A stretch of 64,000 bases of DNA from Tepidanaerobacteraceae bacterium (GCA_024655905.1 JANLFP010000003.1:248001-312000); one strand, 5' to 3'. Counted from the first letter of the stretch, positions 6,672 through 47,601 are shown. Made by a program: numbers and translations. Notes: generated by a model from the letters alone, not told the origin.

Positions 6672-6895
6672 ACAAAAAAAACTCGCCCCTGAAGGGACGA
6701 GGTATTCTCGCGGTACCACCCTGGTTGAGCATAGCTCCACCTCATTTTGATAACGGTATAACATCCGGCCTGGCCTACTCGATAACCTTTCAACCCACAG
6801 CTCGGGAGCGGCCCGAAGTCTTCCACCTGCCGGCTTTCACCCTTCCCGGCTCTCTTTGAGGCTTTGCGACTCCTTCTTCTCCGTCATGGCTTTTG
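6672..6895 (-). promoter_or_regulatory. T-box leader (complete) upstream of the aminotransferase
   Basis: On the minus strand the leader runs from about 6895. It has AGAGAG and GGTG segments in Stem I, an exact T-box motif (AGGGTGGTACCGCG, 6720-6707), and a terminator (CTCGTCCCTTCAGGGGCGAG followed by a T-run near 6679-6672). T-box leaders bind an uncharged tRNA and then favour antitermination. The specifier codon cannot be assigned safely: GAC (Asp) and TTC (Phe) both sit in the candidate loop (GGAAGACTTCGGGCC, near 6815). Either would suit an aminotransferase. Confidence 0.88.
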
Positions 6896-6982
6896 ATAAT
6901 CTTTGATTTGCTATTGTGTTATTTAAAATATCATTTTATTTTTGAAATGTCAAGTATGAATTTTAATTTTAAACCTGTACTC

Positions 6983-24342: not shown

Positions 24343-24374
24343 TATAAAAACAAAAGAAAATCGAATATGGGCAA

Positions 24375-24483
24375 CCTTTAAACTGGTCCCGCGAGGCCGG
24401 TAAGGGAAGAAGCAGTCAGCTTTGGGCACGCAAGGTTTCATGCGACCGCAAGCCTTTCTCCGCCTCGGAGAAAGGCTTTTTTG
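24375..24483 (+). promoter_or_regulatory. PyrR-dependent attenuator of the pyr operon
   Basis: The binding-loop hairpin (24375-24406) contains GGTCCCGCGAGGCC, matching the PyrR consensus ARUCCNGNGAGGYU except at its paired ends. It is closed by CCTT/AAGG arms. A strong terminator (AAGCCTTTCTCC/GGAGAAAGGCTT plus T-run, 24450-24482) follows. In the known mechanism, UMP-loaded PyrR holds the hairpin and lets the terminator form. No pyrR gene is present in the window, so it lies elsewhere. Confidence 0.9.
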
Positions 24484-24566
24484 ATGCATAAGACAGCATC
24501 AGGCGTGCCGGGTTTGAAATAGACCAGAGCTGCCGGAAGCTTTGCAGCCAAGATGAATAATCCCCT

Positions 24567-40139: not shown

Positions 40140-40265
40140 GAGCGGAAAAAGTTTTTTTGAGTGGAAAAATTTTTTTGGGCAAAAGTTTTAAGATAGTGGA
40201 ACAAAAGAAGGAAAATCAAAAAGTGTGTCGAATATTATATCTAAAATCGAATAATTAAAATCAAA

Positions 40266-40350
40266 CGATAAAGGCAAACCCACCGAAAGGCGGGGGCGCA
40301 AAGCTGCGGGCCTAAAGTCGATAAGACTATGGCAGCCGGGTTGCCGAATC
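40266..40350 (+). promoter_or_regulatory. Cyclic-di-GMP class I riboswitch, copy 1
   Basis: The GEMM-I aptamer: GGCAAACC, a GAAA tetraloop (CACCGAAAGGCGG), GGGGCGCAAAGC, then CGGGCCTAAAG, and the second-arm ATGGCAGCCGGGTTGCC. The tetraloop-receptor contact and the G of the ligand pocket are in place. It is followed 30 bases later by a terminator, so it probably controls transcript elongation. Confidence 0.93.
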
Positions 40351-40379
40351 TTTATGTTTTATGCTTATGAATTGGACAG

Positions 40380-40421
40380 GCCCCTCCGGCAGCATCGGCA
40401 GGGGCTTATTTAATTGCTTTT
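40380..40421 (+). terminator. Terminator between the two class I riboswitches
   Basis: Arms GCCCCT/AGGGGC with an inner CCG/CGG pair and a T-rich tail (TTATTTAATTGCTTTT). The loop-side CGGCAG can pair with TTGCCG at the end of the first aptamer, a possible antiterminator, so ligand binding may favour termination (inference). Confidence 0.7.
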
Positions 40422-40453
40422 AGAATTGTTTTTTGCGGTTGATGTCTTCCTTT

Positions 40454-40536
40454 CGATAAAGGCAAACCCGCCGAAAGGCGGGGGCGCAAAGCCACGGGTC
40501 TAAAGCAGGATGCAATGACGGCCGGGCTGCCGAAAA
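40454..40536 (+). promoter_or_regulatory. Cyclic-di-GMP class I riboswitch, copy 2
   Basis: The same GEMM-I aptamer signature as copy 1: GGCAAACC, CGCCGAAAGGCGG, GGGGCGCAAAGC, and ATGACGGCCGGGCTGCC. It ends only about 15 bases before the ATG at 40552. The GGGGG binding site directly follows the aptamer, so this copy could act on translation rather than termination. Confidence 0.93.
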
Positions 40537-40551
40537 AGGGGGTCTTAAAAA

Positions 40552-41391
40552 ATGAAAAAGAGCCCGAAAGGGATTTTCCCCGTGCTGCTCGCTTGTTTGA
40601 TTTTTCTCAACCAGAGCACAGCTTTTGCCGCCGGCAGCGAATACATAGAAAAAAACGGCGTTGCCCTTCTTAAGCCGCCATCGGAGGTTTGCGGCAAGGT
40701 GCGCATCGCCGGGAGCACCTCGAAGGCAAAGATAAAACTCATGGTAAATAAAGGGGACAGCCGTACATGGTACGATGTTTCCCTGAACAACGGTGAATTT
40801 GACACCGAGCTTTGGCTGGTGCAGGGAGAAGGGCGCTATACCGTGTCTGTAATGGTGCATGAATACGACAGGAAATACAGCTACGGTCCCACAGTAACCG
40901 TAAACAATACTGAAGAAGTGGACAGGTTCTCGGTGCCCACAAAGGAAGTGGAAAGCGATGCTCCAGAAATCGTCGCGCTGGCGGGAAAGCTCGCACAAGA
41001 CAAAAAGACCGACATGGAAAAAATGAGGGCAATCTATGACTGGATCGTGAAAAACATCGATTATGATTATGAAAAATACGCAAAGCACCGCAGCGGAGAT
41101 TATGACAATACTTACGGTGCATTGAACACCCTCAGGACAAAAAAGGGCGTGTGTTATGACTATGCGGCTCTGGCGGCGGCTTTGGGCAGAGCCGCCGGGG
41201 TCAGGGTAAAGCTGGTGAAAGGGGAAGGCAAAATGGGCACATTTGAAGGCCTTCATGCATGGAACGAATTCTACAGCTCCGAAGAACAAAGGTGGGTCTG
41301 CATGGATGCGACCTTCGGAGCTATAGGGCAGGAAGCGTACTTCGACAACAAAGACTTCGAGGATACCCACAAAAAGATTGATGAATATTGA
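40552..41391 (+). CDS. Exported transglutaminase-like protein
   Basis: A 279-residue protein with a Sec signal peptide (residues 1-28, ending TAFAAG). The N-terminal part (about 30-125) is a beta-sandwich-like segment. A transglutaminase/protease-like domain follows with the Cys-His-Asp triad: KKGVCYDYAALAAALGRAAG (Cys), GLHAWNEF (His), and RWVCMDATFG (Asp). Bacterial members cleave or cross-link wall peptides or surface proteins; which applies here is unknown. It is the gene directly controlled by the tandem class I c-di-GMP riboswitches. A small stretch after the stop leads to the sigma-A promoter of the next unit. Confidence 0.88.
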   Translation: MKKSPKGIFPVLLACLIFLNQSTAFAAGSEYIEKNGVALLKPPSEVCGKVRIAGSTSKAKIKLMVNKGDSRTWYDVSLNNGEFDTELWLVQGEGRYTVSVMVHEYDRKYSYGPTVTVNNTEEVDRFSVPTKEVESDAPEIVALAGKLAQDKKTDMEKMRAIYDWIVKNIDYDYEKYAKHRSGDYDNTYGALNTLRTKKGVCYDYAALAAALGRAAGVRVKLVKGEGKMGTFEGLHAWNEFYSSEEQRWVCMDATFGAIGQEAYFDNKDFEDTHKKIDEY

Positions 41392-41421
41392 AAAGTTTAA
41401 CAAAATTTGCGACAAAATACG

Positions 41422-41450
41422 TTGACAGCCAGCAAAACGTATGCTATAAT
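41422..41450 (+). promoter_or_regulatory. Consensus sigma-A promoter of the sipW operon
   Basis: Exact TTGACA, a 17-base spacer and exact TATAAT, an unusually strong promoter. Transcription would start about 15 bases before the first class II riboswitch, so control must occur after initiation. Confidence 0.92.
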
Positions 41451-41475
41451 CTTACTCACAAGAGAAATATTTACA

Positions 41476-41550
41476 TTTGGGTGACGATGCGGTATGTTCT
41501 TAAAGATGGGCACCTGGAACATACTGAGTCAGTGGTGCAACCGACCCAAT
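41476..41550 (+). promoter_or_regulatory. Cyclic-di-GMP class II riboswitch, copy 1
   Basis: It contains the class II signatures GGGCACCTGG and GTCAGTGGTGCAACCGACC. The GCACC/GGTGC pseudoknot pairs across the P2 stem (TATGTTC/GAACATA). P1 is TTGGGT (41477-41482) with ACCCAA (41544-41549). The right P1 strand is also the left arm of the terminator that follows, so ligand binding should prevent termination (an ON switch). The assignment is from memory of the Clostridium acetobutylicum aptamer. Confidence 0.9.
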
Positions 41551-41585
41551 CTATTTCCGAAGATAGATTGGGTTAAATTATTTTT
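41544..41585 (+). terminator. Riboswitch-controlled terminator, copy 1
   Basis: Perfect eleven-base arms ACCCAATCTAT/ATAGATTGGGT (41544-41554 and 41563-41573), then AAATTATTTTT. It shares bases with P1 of the riboswitch, so the two structures exclude one another. Confidence 0.88.
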
Positions 41586-41683
41586 CGAAGAAAAAATTTT
41601 ATGTTGCCGCCTGTTCCGAATTTTTTTTTCAAAAATAGCATAGTATTGAAAAGTGATGAATATGATATCGATATAATGGTTTT

Positions 41684-41758
41684 CGAGGGAGATAATGACG
41701 CTTGTTCCGTATTTGGGGCACCTGGGGGCAAGCCGAGTCAGTGGTGCAACCGACCCTA
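41684..41758 (+). promoter_or_regulatory. Cyclic-di-GMP class II riboswitch, copy 2
   Basis: The same signatures as copy 1: GGGGCACCTGG and GTCAGTGGTGCAACCGACC. Here P2 is GCTTG/CAAGC, different in sequence from copy 1 but again complementary, which supports the fold by covariation. It is followed by its own terminator. Confidence 0.9.
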
Positions 41759-41781
41759 TCTTTTCTAAGATGGGGTTTTTT
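41753..41781 (+). terminator. Riboswitch-controlled terminator, copy 2
   Basis: Arms ACCCTATCTT/AAGATGGGGT (one T-G pair) with loop TTCT and a T-run. The left arm overlaps the aptamer's right P1 strand. Confidence 0.86.
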
Positions 41782-41882
41782 ATTGGACATAAGATTTTTA
41801 TATGATCTACAAATAATTTTTGGATTTATTGGATATATATACTTAAGAATCAAAAATCAGGGAAAAAATTAAGGAGGGTCCG

Positions 41883-42476
41883 ATGAAGACCGCATTAAAA
41901 TGGTTAAACAGCATATTGACGGTTGTGCTTCTGCTAATGGTCGCATGCTCCTTTTTTCTGATATACCAGTCCAGGATGGAACCCAACAGGGCGGCTTCCA
42001 TCATGGGCTATAAACCCCTCACGGTGCTTTCCGGCAGCATGAGCCCCTTCCTGGAGCCCGGTGACATGATAGTGGTTCACCGGGTAGATCCGGCAAGCAT
42101 AAAGGTGGGCGATGTTATAACGTTCCGTGTGGATGACCGGACCCTGGTCACCCATCGCGTGGCGGAAGTCATACCGCAGGACGGGCGCATGGCTTTCAGG
42201 ACGAAAGGTGACGCCAACAACACCGAAGATATAGATTTGGTGACCCAGGACAGGGTTGTGGGCTCCATGGCATTCAAAATACCTTATGCGGGGTACATAG
42301 GCAGGTTTGCCAGAACGCCAAAAGGATTCGTGGCGATGATAGTTTTCCCCGGAGTGCTGCTAATCGCCGGAGAGATAAAAAACATACTGAACGAGCTGTC
42401 GAAAGAACAAAAACAAAGAAAGGCCCATGACTCAGACCCGGAGCAGGACTCCTCGGGAGATGACATGAAAGCATAG
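41883..42476 (+). CDS. sipW: Signal peptidase I, SipW (ER) type
   Basis: A 197-residue type I signal peptidase of the SipW/archaeal class. The catalytic serine is in TVLSGSMSPFLEPGDMIVV and a histidine replaces the usual lysine (TLVTHRVAEV). Hydrophobic segments at both ends anchor it (ILTVVLLLMVACSFFLIY; GFVAMIVFPGVLLIAG). SipW enzymes process biofilm proteins of the TasA family, two of which follow directly. AAGGAGG precedes the ATG. It is the first gene under the tandem class II riboswitches. Confidence 0.95.
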   Translation: MKTALKWLNSILTVVLLLMVACSFFLIYQSRMEPNRAASIMGYKPLTVLSGSMSPFLEPGDMIVVHRVDPASIKVGDVITFRVDDRTLVTHRVAEVIPQDGRMAFRTKGDANNTEDIDLVTQDRVVGSMAFKIPYAGYIGRFARTPKGFVAMIVFPGVLLIAGEIKNILNELSKEQKQRKAHDSDPEQDSSGDDMKA

Positions 42477-42553
42477 TTTTTTTTGATAAGGAATTTTCTC
42501 AAAACAAAAAATATTGGGAGGTGGTCGCCAAGATCTCGCGCTTGAATCAAAAT

Positions 42554-42580
42554 GGGTTATCCCGCTGCAATGGATAACCC
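42554..42580 (+). other. Hairpin between sipW and the first TasA-like gene
   Basis: Perfect nine-base arms GGGTTATCC/GGATAACCC without a T-run. It could be a processing or stabilising hairpin that raises the level of the fibre transcript over sipW. The remaining bases to 42685 hold no gene. Confidence 0.6.
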
Positions 42581-42685
42581 GGCAAAAACAATAATCATCC
42601 ACTCTCATTCTACCACAAAACGGGGGATAATAAAATCCCAAAACAAAAACATCACAAAAAAATCAAATTTTAGGAGGAAAATGAC

Positions 42686-43204
42686 ATGAGAAGAAACATC
42701 ATCATCAGTTTGGTGCTCATCGGATTGCTTGCATTTGGAATCGGCTTCGGCACATTTGCATACTTCACCAGCCAGGCGACAAGCCAGAACAATACCTTTA
42801 CTGCCGGCACCCTTACAATCGACAGCCCGGGGCAATTGACAGCAAGCCTAGCTGTAGGAAACATTTATCCAGGCTGGACTACCAGCAAGACCATAACCGT
42901 TCACAACTCGGGTTCCCTCGACTTCAAATACAGAATCAGCGTGCAGCCCCTTGCCGGAAACATGCTCTATGACGGTGCCACGCCCCTTCAGGTCAGCATA
43001 AACGGAGGAGCGTACACCAATATCAATTCCCTGGGATATGTGGAATTGGGCAATATAGCCGCTGGGCAGGACGGCACTTTCACGATAGCGTTCAAGCTGC
43101 CCGAAGCCGCAGACAATTCTTATCAGGGCGCTTCAGGAACATTCACATTCGTGTTTGACGCCACTCAGACGTCAAATCCCGGCTATTCTGAGGCCGGCCA
43201 GTAA
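42686..43204 (+). CDS. TasA/camelysin-family fibre protein
   Basis: A 172-residue secreted protein. The N-terminal signal peptide ends in the SipW-type junction FGTFAYFTSQATSQ, followed by NTFTAGTLTID, which is the hallmark of TasA/CalY proteins. The mature part is a beta-sandwich (VHNSGSLDFKYRISVQPL, FTFVFDAT). In Bacillus, such proteins form surface fibres in the biofilm matrix. The site TAGGAGG lies ahead of the ATG. It is probably the major subunit because it is the shortest and simplest of the cluster. Confidence 0.93.
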   Translation: MRRNIIISLVLIGLLAFGIGFGTFAYFTSQATSQNNTFTAGTLTIDSPGQLTASLAVGNIYPGWTTSKTITVHNSGSLDFKYRISVQPLAGNMLYDGATPLQVSINGGAYTNINSLGYVELGNIAAGQDGTFTIAFKLPEAADNSYQGASGTFTFVFDATQTSNPGYSEAGQ

Positions 43205-43218
43205 ATCCATGAACATGT

Positions 43219-43242
43219 CAGCCGGGCTCCAAAGCCCGGCTG
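43219..43242 (+). terminator. Hairpin between the two TasA-like genes
   Basis: Perfect nine-base arms CAGCCGGGC/GCCCGGCTG with loop TCCAAA and AAATTG after it. It may be a partial terminator or a stabiliser that makes the first subunit more abundant than the second. Confidence 0.6.
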
Positions 43243-43317
43243 AAATTGATGGATTAAGCCATTATTCAAAGCCCGGAATTAATTAAGGGAGCTTTGAAAA
43301 TAAAAGGAGGGCCATTA

Positions 43318-44286
43318 ATGAATAAAAAGCTCATAGTGGGAATACTGGCCGTGACCCTCGTGTGTGCCTTTGCGGGTGCTGGTACCATGGCGTATTTTAC
43401 CAGCCGCGCAACCAGCGAAGCGAACACCTTTGTAGCAGGCACCCTGGTGCTGGGCGGAGTAATAGACGGCTCCGACGTGGCCAATCGCTTTGCCACATTG
43501 AATATGGCAAATCTGAAACCCGGCGACCCCGTTCATCTGGGTTCTACCCTGCTAAAAAATGTGGGAACACTTCCCTTTAAGCTGTACCGCATGACCGCGT
43601 CCAATATAGTTGACGCTTCGGGGTTGGACGGCGTGCTTACGCTTAATGTGACAATAGGCGGGGAGCAGGTGTTTTCCGGGAAATTAAGCCAGCTGGTGCA
43701 GGAAAACGGAGGTTACTTCGATCCCATTTACAACGTCCAGCCCGGTGAGGAAAAGGCCATGGACCTTTATGTCATGATGGATGCCGCAGCCGGCAACGCC
43801 TATCAGGGCAAATCAATGACCTGCGACCTCACCGTATATGCGGCACAGAATGAAATGCCATCAAACGGCGAACCCCAGGGAAGCCAGGTAAATCTTGGCA
43901 CGGCTCCCGGTGGAAGGCCAACCTTCTCCGTAGCGGGCTACAATACCCCGAGCCAGGTGTGTTTTGACTGGAACTGGGACCCGGAAGATGCGGGATACGA
44001 GTATTATAAGCTGGAAATAAAACATGAGACCGGGACTCCGACGACCACTATCGAAGAAGAAAGGATGGTCATAATCATATTGCCGATTACCAGGGAGATC
44101 GTGGTTTCGGGAGACGGCATAGATGGAAACGATGTAAATGTCGACTGGAACGGTGATGTGGTGAAAATTGATAAGTCCGCGTTCCCCAGCGACTGGACCG
44201 GATTTGAGGTAAGACTTTCCGGGAAGCAGCGCTTAACGGGCACGGTAAAATCCATACCCTATCAGTGGTGGTCCCTTAACAGATAA
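43318..44286 (+). CDS. Second TasA/camelysin-like protein with C-terminal extension
   Basis: A 322-residue protein. It has the same N-terminal pattern as the previous gene: a hydrophobic signal ending in GAGTMAYFTSRATSEANTFV, then AGTLVLGGVIDG. A TasA-like beta-sandwich covers about residues 30-190. The additional 130 residues (from QVNLGTAPGGRPTF) form a beta-rich domain I do not recognise, containing DWNWDPEDAGYEYYKLEI and a DGNDVNVDWNGDVV stretch. It may be an accessory or cap subunit. AAGGAGGG lies ahead of ATG 43318; the frame is open upstream but no site supports it. A terminator follows. Confidence 0.9.
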   Translation: MNKKLIVGILAVTLVCAFAGAGTMAYFTSRATSEANTFVAGTLVLGGVIDGSDVANRFATLNMANLKPGDPVHLGSTLLKNVGTLPFKLYRMTASNIVDASGLDGVLTLNVTIGGEQVFSGKLSQLVQENGGYFDPIYNVQPGEEKAMDLYVMMDAAAGNAYQGKSMTCDLTVYAAQNEMPSNGEPQGSQVNLGTAPGGRPTFSVAGYNTPSQVCFDWNWDPEDAGYEYYKLEIKHETGTPTTTIEEERMVIIILPITREIVVSGDGIDGNDVNVDWNGDVVKIDKSAFPSDWTGFEVRLSGKQRLTGTVKSIPYQWWSLNR

Positions 44287-44316
44287 TCCTTCAGATGGCA
44301 AAACCTCTGAAACATT

Positions 44317-44345
44317 CCGCAGCCGGGCATAAAATCCGGCTGCGG
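44317..44345 (+). terminator. Terminator after the second TasA-like gene
   Basis: Perfect ten-base arms CCGCAGCCGG/CCGGCTGCGG, then a T-rich tail. Confidence 0.82.
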
Positions 44346-44538
44346 TGTGCTCTTGCTATTTTAAATTTCTGAAAGCAACCGATGGAATTAATTGCTGGGG
44401 ATGATTTAATCACTCTCTCAATATCATGCCTTTCTTATAGCGGTTTTACGGCATCCAAAAGGGTTCCGAAATTTGACTCCACCCGGAACATTTTTGGATC
44501 CCGTAAAAAAAGAACTTCATCGGTCTGCGAAAGGGGGG

Positions 44539-45747
44539 ATGAGGAATTTGAAGCGAAGAAACAAGATGAAATCGGGTATGTTGCTCATGGCGGCCATCTT
44601 TATATTCATTTCGACTTTTTGGGGAGCCGCCGCGTCGCTCGCGACCAACGCCGATCCGGATGTGACGCTGGATGTATCCGGGCAGGGTTCCAGCGGCGGA
44701 GCCATGTTCGGGAACGGGATCTGGGCTCCCGGGGCAAGCCGGGCGGGCACCATCAGGCTTTACAATAATCATTCCGAAAGGGTGCGCGTGAACAGCTTCG
44801 GCATTTCCATGAAGCTGGAAAGGACTCTTGGCGGAGAGCCTGAAGCCATAGCTCCGCACAGCGGCTTATACGAATCTTTTGCAAAAAGCATGAAGCTTAC
44901 CATAAAAAAAGGCAGGCTACTGGTATTTTCGGATACAGTCTTTGAAGGCAGCTTTTTTGAACTGCTCTATGGCAGCGGGGATGAAACTTACCGGGGATAT
45001 GCCCTGCCGCAGGGCGATGGGTTCAATATTGATGAAGGCGGCTCTGCAGATTTGGAATATGCGGTGCGCATGGATGAGCGGGCAGGCAACGACATGCAGG
45101 GATTGAAAGCAACCGTGGCGTTCCTTGTAAACATGGATGAAAATCCCGTACCCGAGCATAGAGACAGGAACAACAACAATCAGTTGGTGGAAGAACCGCT
45201 GGAGGAGTATCCCGACATCGGCGGCCACTGGGCCCACGATTGCATAGTTGCACTGCTGCAGCACGGAATAATCCACGGTTATCCCGACGGCACGATAAGG
45301 CCTGACAACTACATCACCAGGGCCGAAGCCGCAGTTCTTGCGGCGAACGCACTCAATCTGGGCGAGACGGCGGGCGCGCCCTCATATGCAGATGCTATTC
45401 TCCCATGGGCTCAGGGATACATATTGTCGACTACCGGCAAGGGCATATTCGAAGGCTATCCCGGAAACGTGTTCAAACCCGAAAATTATATTACGAGGGA
45501 AGAAATGGCCGCGGCCCTGATGCGCGCTTTCGGCAAAAAAGCGCAAGAGGATGTGCGGCTTGCATTCAGGGATAAGGACGATATAGGCGCATGGGCGGCG
45601 GAATATGTTAAGGCGGGCATATACAACGATATTATAACTGGCTATCCTGACAATACCTTCAAGCCAAAAGCCCAGGTCACTAGGGCCGAAGCATTTACCA
45701 TGATATGCAAATTGCTGGGTTATCACGCAGAACATGCCAAGCAGTGA
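44539..45747 (+). CDS. SLH-domain anchor protein of the fibre cluster
   Basis: About 403 residues with an N-terminal signal segment (KSGMLLMAAIFIFISTFW), a beta-sandwich middle part (about 40-220, GIWAPGASRAGTIRLYNNHS), and three SLH domains at the C-terminus (near 223-275, 290-340, 350-400). Their signatures include DIGGHWAHDCIVALLQHGII and ITRAEAAVLAANAL. The middle part looks like a distant TasA-type sandwich (inference), so this protein could fasten the fibres to the wall. The start is uncertain: ATG 44539 touches GGGGGG and TTG 44548 has better spacing. It lies between a terminator and the coiled-coil gene, 40 bases away. Confidence 0.85.
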   Translation: MRNLKRRNKMKSGMLLMAAIFIFISTFWGAAASLATNADPDVTLDVSGQGSSGGAMFGNGIWAPGASRAGTIRLYNNHSERVRVNSFGISMKLERTLGGEPEAIAPHSGLYESFAKSMKLTIKKGRLLVFSDTVFEGSFFELLYGSGDETYRGYALPQGDGFNIDEGGSADLEYAVRMDERAGNDMQGLKATVAFLVNMDENPVPEHRDRNNNNQLVEEPLEEYPDIGGHWAHDCIVALLQHGIIHGYPDGTIRPDNYITRAEAAVLAANALNLGETAGAPSYADAILPWAQGYILSTTGKGIFEGYPGNVFKPENYITREEMAAALMRAFGKKAQEDVRLAFRDKDDIGAWAAEYVKAGIYNDIITGYPDNTFKPKAQVTRAEAFTMICKLLGYHAEHAKQ

Positions 45748-45787
45748 TATGCCAAAAATAAATATATACCCGGGGAGGTGAAAATGA

Positions 45788-47542
45788 TTGGGACATAAGG
45801 CAAAAGTCATAAAGGGCATCCTTTTTAAAGCAGCAGGCTTTTTTCTGGCAGGGGTGCTCGTGAGCATGGCCCTGCTTACCGATACCAGCACCCTTGCATG
45901 GTTTTCTTCCAGGGTCGCCGGCAGCATTCAGGTCCAGGCGGCTTCCGGCGAAGACATCATCGAAGATTTTTATACGCTCAGCGGCGGCTCCAGGAGCAGC
46001 CGGAACCCGGACACCATTGTGGTGAAAAAGGCTCCGAACATGAAGGGAAATATGATAGTATATTTTTCCCTGGATGAAAAAATTTCCGGCAAAAATTCCG
46101 GGCACGGCCTGGCAGGCTACATGCTGCACTTGAATCCGATTGAAATAAAGGATAACGGCCAAGGCGAATTTCGCGCGCAGATTGAAATGAAATTCAACTG
46201 GAGGGATCTGGTTTACCTCTGGGACAATTTCGACAAGACCGAGTCGGGGACGCTGACACTCCGCTATCTAAACGGCTTCGTCATAAAAGAATATCCGGTG
46301 ACTTTTGACAACGGCTATCTTTGGAGCCGCGCCGTAGCTTCTCTGACGGGTATGCCGGACATGAAGTATGCGAAAAAGAATAAGGACGACCTCGAAAACC
46401 AGATGAATGCATACATAGCACAAATAATAGCCGATCTGGCCCAGAGCGTCCACTGGAACCAAATTATTTCATCGGGAAGGACGGCGCTCTTTAGTGCATC
46501 CATTATGGCTTATGACGATAAAACAGCGCCAGAACAGGCATCAGACCAGTTAAAAACCGGCTCTGTAACGACCGCCGCCATGGCCCGCGCAAGGATGAAC
46601 GGTGTTGTAAACCCCTTCGAAAGAATTCAGCTGACCGGAGAGCAGCAATCCATAGTCGACATAGTGGCGCCGGGGCTTACGGCATATATCGAAAATATCT
46701 ACAATTTCGTCGAGGAACTCATAGCACGGCTCAACGAAAAGATGGCAGAAATTGATAAGCTCAATCTTGCAATCGATGGCATGAATGCGCAGATACAGGG
46801 GCTCAACGCCGCCATAGACGATTTGACTCAAAAATACACCGCCCTTGAACAGGAAAAGGCTGCACTGCTGGAAGAAAAAATGAATCTTGAGCAGGATAAT
46901 ATGAAACTGAAGGCTAAAATCGACGACCTGAAGGATGAGATAGACAGCCTCATTGAAAAAAATGCCGGATTGAAAGATGAAATTAAGGATTTGGAGTTGA
47001 GAAATACTTCTCTTGAGCAGGAAATCCAGAAAATGAAAGACGAAAACGATAACCTGCGAAAAGAAATTGAAAACCTGAAACATTCTTCTATATCCGGCGG
47101 ATCCGGAAATACGTCTTCTGGAGGATCAGGGGCCCCTTCGGATGAGATTGAGCCTCCGGCGGGAACACAACCCCCATCTGCAGAACCGCCTGATGGAGGG
47201 TTTGGAGATACGGGCACAGTGCAGCCGCCGACGCAGGAAGCCGGGGAACAACCCCCGGCTGGGCAGGAACCCGCGGTAGAAGAGCCCGGGGCACCATCAT
47301 CAGGCGGAAAGCAACCGGTCGGAAATTCCACCCAGCAAGATTCTCCTTCTGCAAAATCGCAGGACGGCCTAGGAAATGAAGATTCCATAGACAGCGCAAA
47401 CCCGTCTGGTGGAGAAGGGCCATCGCTGCAGCAGGGCGCATCAGGCGCAGATTCACAAAAAGAACAGGCCGGTGCAGCGGCGTCGCAGGAAAACCAGCCT
47501 TCGACACAGCAGGATGGCCAGGATGTGCTGATAGCTCCATAA
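45788..47542 (+). CDS. Secreted coiled-coil protein of the fibre cluster
   Basis: 584 residues from TTG 45788 (GGAGG lies 9 bases ahead; the nearby ATG runs into a stop). A signal segment ends in the SipW-like junction STLAWFSSRVAGSIQVQAAS. A globular domain covers about 50-300. A long heptad coiled coil (about 304-435) follows, with repeats such as EEKMNLEQDNMKLKAKIDDL. A low-complexity Gly/Pro/Ser/Gln tail (about 436-584) ends the protein. The junction suggests it is processed by SipW like the TasA-like proteins. The tail and coiled coil fit a long spacer or adhesin stalk. No SLH or sortase motif is seen. Confidence 0.82.
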   Translation: MGHKAKVIKGILFKAAGFFLAGVLVSMALLTDTSTLAWFSSRVAGSIQVQAASGEDIIEDFYTLSGGSRSSRNPDTIVVKKAPNMKGNMIVYFSLDEKISGKNSGHGLAGYMLHLNPIEIKDNGQGEFRAQIEMKFNWRDLVYLWDNFDKTESGTLTLRYLNGFVIKEYPVTFDNGYLWSRAVASLTGMPDMKYAKKNKDDLENQMNAYIAQIIADLAQSVHWNQIISSGRTALFSASIMAYDDKTAPEQASDQLKTGSVTTAAMARARMNGVVNPFERIQLTGEQQSIVDIVAPGLTAYIENIYNFVEELIARLNEKMAEIDKLNLAIDGMNAQIQGLNAAIDDLTQKYTALEQEKAALLEEKMNLEQDNMKLKAKIDDLKDEIDSLIEKNAGLKDEIKDLELRNTSLEQEIQKMKDENDNLRKEIENLKHSSISGGSGNTSSGGSGAPSDEIEPPAGTQPPSAEPPDGGFGDTGTVQPPTQEAGEQPPAGQEPAVEEPGAPSSGGKQPVGNSTQQDSPSAKSQDGLGNEDSIDSANPSGGEGPSLQQGASGADSQKEQAGAAASQENQPSTQQDGQDVLIAP

Positions 47543-47574: not shown

Positions 47575-47601
47575 CCTCTGCCACACGGGCAGAGGCTTTT
47601 T
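47575..47601 (+). terminator. Terminator after the coiled-coil gene
   Basis: Perfect arms CCTCTGCC/GGCAGAGG, five-base loop, then CTTTTT. Confidence 0.88.

Follow-up and report, generated by a model that had tools for sequence, protein, structure and literature searches.

A 64,000-nucleotide stretch of DNA from a Tepidanaerobacteraceae bacterium (GCA_024655905.1 JANLFP010000003.1:248001-312000), hereafter termed the window and numbered from its first nucleotide, carries two class I and two class II aptamers for cyclic diguanosine monophosphate (c-di-GMP) within a span of 1.6 kb. The class I pair lies 5' of tgl, a gene for an exported transglutaminase-fold enzyme, and the class II pair lies 5' of sipW-tasA1-tasA2-slh-coil, which encode a SipW-type signal peptidase, two TasA-like proteins, an SLH protein and a secreted coiled-coil protein. 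With moderate confidence, we interpret this locus as two units under inverse c-di-GMP control, in which the tgl product releases or reshapes the fibre or surface layer. Unless stated otherwise, all window features described below lie on the + strand.

Aptamers and predicted expression platforms

All four aptamers score above their Rfam cut-offs (59, 35 and 53.5 bits for RF03167, RF01051 and RF01786, respectively), which bears out the claim of an initial annotation of this DNA that four c-di-GMP aptamers of two folds lie within 1.6 kb. Class I aptamer #1 occupies 40264-40349 (RF03167, 72.7 bits; RF01051, 84.5 bits) and #2 occupies 40452-40535 (81.6 and 87.8 bits); class II aptamers #1 and #2 occupy 41471-41554 and 41679-41764 (RF01786, 66.2 and 57.3 bits). 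A covariance scan of the whole 3.2-Mb genome returned ten class I matches, nine of them above cut-off, and two class II matches, both at the tgl/fibre locus. Under uniform placement, the chance that a class II locus falls within 1.6 kb of one of the ~8 class I loci is ~0.8%; chance adjacency of the class I-tgl and class II-fibre genes was rejected, the arrangement being kept in another order. Other class I aptamers of this genome (L011, L005, L010) lie 5' of a flgB-flgC-type flagellar operon and of genes for methyl-accepting chemotaxis proteins, and the placement before the flagellar operon is consistent with class I acting as an OFF switch.

The RF03167 model (c-di-GMP-I-GGC) is above its cut-off and is the reported clan winner at both class I sites, although the RF01051 bit scores are higher. 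This assignment, and the presence in some relatives of an A at the second position 5' of the conserved CAAA (A2), a site linked to selectivity for cyclic GMP-AMP (cGAMP), would accord with class I aptamers that sense another cyclic dinucleotide, whether as a GGC-type variant or as cGAMP receptors, such that the two halves of the locus answer different signals. However, this site is a G in each of the two window aptamers, whose binding-site letters are CAAA, as in standard class I, rather than the CGAA of the RF03167 model consensus. Given also the higher RF01051 scores (87.8 and 84.5 bits) and the eight GGDEF domains encoded in the genome, we regard this as the least probable of the explanations considered.

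Because of their expression platforms, the two aptamer classes are predicted to act in opposite senses. Class I #1 is followed by an intrinsic terminator at 40379-40412 (stem 40379-40405, then a U-rich tract) whose 5' arm can, by fold prediction, pair with the aptamer 3' strand to form an antiterminator. The calculated energies are -18.6 kcal/mol for the terminator and -17.1 kcal/mol for the antiterminator duplex, the equivalents in the related genome G002 are -20.8 and -17.2 kcal/mol, and the terminator is retained in a second relative, G001. In these predicted folds, class I #1 resembles the antiterminator/terminator arrangement of Cd1, an OFF switch that has been studied experimentally (PMC9262584). 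Class I #2 appears to work differently, at the level of translation. The tgl Shine-Dalgarno sequence AAGGGGG (40536-40542) abuts P1 of this aptamer, as it does at the equivalent position in ~33 relatives, and a pyrimidine tract at 40446-40455, kept in G002 and G001, pairs with it and extends P1; specifically, CUUCC-UUUCG on the 5' side pairs with CGAAA-AA-GGGGG on the 3' side, and the G001 remnant and G002 preserve this pairing. The comparison was extended to 37 class I sites, of which 35 directly precede tgl homologues or the tgl remnant. The mean energy of the duplex between 5' flank and ribosome-binding site is -11.6 for these 37 sites, compared with -10.2 (standard deviation 0.38) when flanks are exchanged at random between loci; the observed mean was not reached in any of 300 such permutations. 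A ligand-stabilised P1 would conceal the tgl ribosome-binding site, and class I #2 is therefore predicted to be an OFF switch that buries this site in its extended P1.

For the class II leaders, terminators lie at 41543-41574 (aptamer #1) and 41752-41777 (aptamer #2), and each of them uses the 3' strand of P1 as its 5' arm, so a bound aptamer is expected to block termination. This mutual exclusion of P1 and terminator holds for both window leaders and for most of the class II sites that were checked. Both leaders are thus predicted to be ON switches, and both aptamers must presumably be bound for readthrough. These modelled platforms agree with the initial annotation's proposal that fibre genes and enzyme respond in opposite senses to one messenger. 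A leader of mixed class occurs in Anaerovirgula multivorans (L069 4316-4797), where one class I and then two class II aptamers precede the gene for a 1293-aa surface protein, and P1 of the second class II aptamer overlaps a terminator-like hairpin of the first.

The two pairs of aptamers do not govern a single operon, a possibility that was rejected because a sigmaA-type promoter with a 12/12 match (TTGACA-17-TATAAT, 41422-41450) sits between the tgl stop codon and class II #1; tgl and the fibre genes are two transcription units, and the second ends at a terminator (47575-47595) ahead of pyrG. Upstream of class I #1, a promoter at 40207-40235 matches RNAGGAWWW-N11-RNNGAATWW, which we take from B. 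subtilis to be the sigmaH-type consensus. It is the only perfect match in the 64-kb window (0.23 expected), it is kept upstream of the tgl leader in G002 (L030 14297-14323, minus strand), and a sigH gene is present in the genome. The promoter region also contains TGTCGAA, a 0A-box-like motif; an 0A-box upstream of tgl was found in G000 and G002 only and is absent from more distant relatives, and no weight was given to it in the argument. In G001 and G002 (L035, L036), a class II riboswitch lies 5' of a type IV pilus operon with pilB-like genes and, as for the tgl leader, a perfect sigmaH-type promoter stands just upstream; a recurrent coupling of sigmaH and c-di-GMP is possible.

Conservation of the locus among relatives

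Gene order was compared in 22 genomes of the order and in 80 tgl loci from genome contigs. G002 retains the full block, argS-regulator-MBL-[I,I-tgl]-[II,II-sipW]-tasA1-tasA2-slh-coil-pyrG. G001 retains the fibre genes and a single class II aptamer 5' of sipW; of its tgl, a short reading frame (MKGKGSYTISFMVHEY...) is left, preceded by one class I aptamer, and the rest of that genome contains no close tgl. Within the order, a class I aptamer stands just upstream of each of the eight near-full tgl homologues, and sipW-tasA-sortase clusters contain four of the eight. In the larger sample, a class I aptamer precedes tgl by at most 700 nucleotides at 39 of the 80 loci, and 56 of the 63 class I matches of those loci are found there.

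The pairing extends to other genera. In Geosporobacter ferrireducens and G. subterraneus, which belong to another order, the arrangement is I-tgl-II-histidine kinase-response regulator-sipW-tasA-like-slh, and the former also has the coil gene. Clostridium sp. ZS2-4 and C. aestuarii carry II-sipW ... I,I-tgl, A. multivorans carries I,II,II-surface protein-sortase-I,I-tgl, and in Paenibacillus sp. H1-7 a class II aptamer placed 5' of surface genes lies beside class I-tgl. The survey of related genomes called for by the initial annotation thus finds the gene order kept, and the genes not always separated, in G002, Geosporobacter and other genera. Class II leaders before genes for a histidine kinase and a LuxR-type response regulator, next to sipW, occur at L042 11012-13592, L043 11006-13547 and L044 1631-4268; no such regulator pair is present at the window locus. 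In G008, of the same genus, the position next to argS and the MBL gene is taken by another sipW/tasA cluster, accompanied by a sortase-like gene encoded on the opposite strand (L034 4809-11123), and the site beside argS/MBL seems to exchange surface-fibre clusters.

The state of G001 bears on the role of the enzyme. Its transglutaminase fold and the physical linkage of the genes could be taken to mean that the tgl product cross-links and stabilises the fibre, that both are needed together, and that the opposite senses are spurious, a product of structure prediction. Against this stand the Shine-Dalgarno sequence within P1 at dozens of loci, the overlap of class II terminators with P1, and the persistence of the fibre operon in G001 without tgl, and we consider such a role very improbable. 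Since the fibre genes are kept where tgl has been lost, tgl is unlikely to be needed for building fibres, and cross-linking by tgl as an essential step was rejected on the same ground. The initial annotation had suggested that the module builds and remodels fibres; a remodelling role for the enzyme survives this comparison, a requirement for it in building does not.

Products of the two units

Family matches support the gene content assigned by the initial annotation (a transglutaminase-like enzyme, SipW, two TasA/camelysin-like proteins, an SLH protein and a coiled-coil protein). The signal peptidase (41883-42476), of the SipW or ER type, matches TIGR02228 at 127 bits (cut-off 51.85), and its score against the Bacillus SipW equivalog NF046067, 150.6 bits, is below the cut-off of 190. 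TasA1 (42686-43204; PF12389, TIGR04088) and TasA2 (43318-44286; reading frame open from 43294) each carry a SipW-type signal peptide and reach 30.6 and 34.1 bits against TIGR04088 (cut-off 19); neither reaches the cut-off of 450 for the B. subtilis TasA equivalog NF046066 (25.3 and 31.1 bits). For an AlphaFold model of TasA1, with a predicted local distance difference test score (pLDDT) of 69, the best PDB matches include TasA structures 5of1 and 5of2, with moderate TM-scores. Between genera, the signal-peptide region of TasA1 (first 43 residues, 42686-42814) is near-invariant, and the mature part has strongly diverged (L029/L030 orthologues).

The slh product (44539-45747; reading frame open from 44473) combines a TasA-like domain with three SLH domains (137 bits). 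Its N-terminal region matches a TasA-like profile (E 8e-7), and in its structural model, which has low overall confidence (mean pLDDT 53) and of which only the beta domain was used, TasA (5of2) is the only PDB match below 1e-3. Because of these two matches, we read the protein as probably joining a TasA-like subunit to a wall anchor. The last gene encodes a coiled-coil, proline-rich secreted protein (45788-47542) whose N-terminus resembles SipW-type signal peptides by eye, with no model match, and was found in 3 of 26 genomes in a search within the class. We infer that the TasA-like products assemble into a cell-surface fibre.

The tgl product (40552-41391) matches the transglutaminase core family PF01841 at 80.9 bits (cut-off 23), and its Cys-His-Asp triad (C201, H235, D252) is invariant among homologues; no Pfam match to the LapG-type BTLCP family was found at E up to 0.1. 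By analogy with characterised enzymes, it would most likely act as a releaser or remodeller of the fibre or surface layer at low c-di-GMP. A rival view, which we hold to be unlikely though worth serious attention, accepts the inverse control and sees in tgl a cross-linking transglutaminase or general wall remodeller of the low-c-di-GMP (motile or sporulating) state that does not act on the fibre. Cross-linking enzymes do occur in PF01841, the sigmaH-type promoter suggests a transition-phase role, and class I-tgl homologues also occur in settings that lack TasA, next to genes for sortases and large surface proteins (Paenibacillus, Bacillus and others), which leaves room for a substrate other than TasA. 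Release of the fibre or surface layer is favoured over this view by the repeated adjacency of tgl to SipW/TasA or sortase-linked surface operons under the opposite riboswitch class, and by the precedents for released substrates, PPEP-1 and LapG.

Proposed mechanism and relation to known systems

At high c-di-GMP, each class II aptamer would hold P1 and prevent its own terminator, and with both bound, sipW-tasA1-tasA2-slh-coil would be transcribed; SipW would process the TasA-like subunits, which would assemble on the SLH-anchored TasA-like base. The same state would shut tgl twice, class I #1 favouring the terminator and class I #2 burying the ribosome-binding site. At low c-di-GMP, fibre synthesis would stop, and tgl would be made and exported as a transglutaminase-fold protease or remodeller that frees or reshapes the fibre or surface layer, comparable to PPEP-1 acting on CD2831. 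The doubled switches would prevent simultaneous production of enzyme and fibre; if paired aptamers are independent and of similar affinity, the maximum overlap between the outputs drops from 1/4 to 1/16. A fuller and more tentative version, which we regard as possible and somewhat doubtful, sees in the locus a Gram-positive equivalent of the Lap system of adhesin release, made up of riboswitches throughout: doubled class II ON switches would build SLH-anchored TasA-like fibres, and doubled class I OFF switches, one transcriptional and one translational, would free a transglutaminase-fold protease at low c-di-GMP, with a dead band between in which neither output is produced.

Several observations weigh against release of the fibre or surface layer under inverse control. 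The duplex and hairpin energies are those of thermodynamic folds and ignore ligand and co-transcriptional kinetics, and in the window the U-tract of the class I #1 terminator is weak. In G002, the GGGCAC core is missing from the first class II aptamer (35.6 bits; L030 13058-13149), which keeps its terminator, so the doubling is not conserved in that genome. About half of the distant tgl homologues have no visible class I aptamer, and PF01841 also includes true transglutaminases.

The initial annotation knew of no described system of this kind, a statement that must be narrowed. In C. difficile, zmpI/PPEP-1 (CD2830, class I OFF) adjoins CD2831 (class II ON), and the protease sheds the adhesin (PMC4591827, PMC6447587, PMC11477304). 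Both loci place an exported enzyme next to a surface protein under inverse class I/class II control. They differ in that C. difficile pairs a zinc metalloprotease with a sortase-anchored collagen-binding protein through single aptamers, whereas the window pairs a transglutaminase-fold enzyme with SipW/TasA/SLH genes through doubled aptamers, the predicted target of class I #2 being the ribosome-binding site. Tandem c-di-GMP-I aptamers, usually doublets, have likewise been reported to be enriched 5' of COG1305 transglutaminase-like genes in Bacillota (PMC12452182). That survey has the aptamer class and enzyme family in common with the window and reports no more than the gene association; the main text describes neither a neighbouring class II-controlled surface operon nor a Shine-Dalgarno sequence in P1. 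Tandem c-di-GMP-II aptamers 5' of COG4932 surface anchor genes are predicted to give a steep response (PMC9481103); here, too, doubled class II aptamers precede surface genes, but the genes and taxa are others (Paraclostridium) and no class I partner is described. The inverse logic itself is therefore already known, and what is new here is the TasA-like fibre genes, the TasA-domain/SLH anchor, the different enzyme and the doubled switches. No description of a class II SipW/TasA operon beside a class I transglutaminase-fold enzyme was found, which is weak evidence since most subscription papers lay outside the search.

Two further systems offer partial parallels. The B. subtilis tapA-sipW-tasA and B. 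cereus sipW-tasA-calY operons encode a SipW-type peptidase and secreted TasA-like subunits (PMC9674648, PMC10151520, PMC4292775). The window shares this combination of peptidase and subunits. To our knowledge, the Bacillus sipW/tasA operons have no c-di-GMP riboswitch and no SLH-fused TasA-like protein. In Pseudomonas fluorescens LapG/LapD/LapA, a transglutaminase-like cysteine protease sheds an adhesin at low c-di-GMP (PMC3032545). The tgl product may work like LapG, but control of LapG is exerted by a c-di-GMP receptor protein instead of a riboswitch, and tgl has no match to the LapG family.

Together, these comparisons suggest that the inverse class I/class II control of a shedding enzyme and its surface substrate in C. 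difficile may exemplify a broader rule within Bacillota, in which enzyme and surface structure are exchanged. They also provide a candidate role for tandem class I aptamers paired with COG1305 genes, a frequent association that lacks an explanation, and make c-di-GMP control of TasA-type fibres directly testable.

Elsewhere in the window, Rfam identifies a T-box leader (6690-6896, - strand) and a PyrR-binding RNA element (24371-24485, + strand), and the segment 58001-64000 has a G+C content of 35-40%, compared with ~50% in the remainder.

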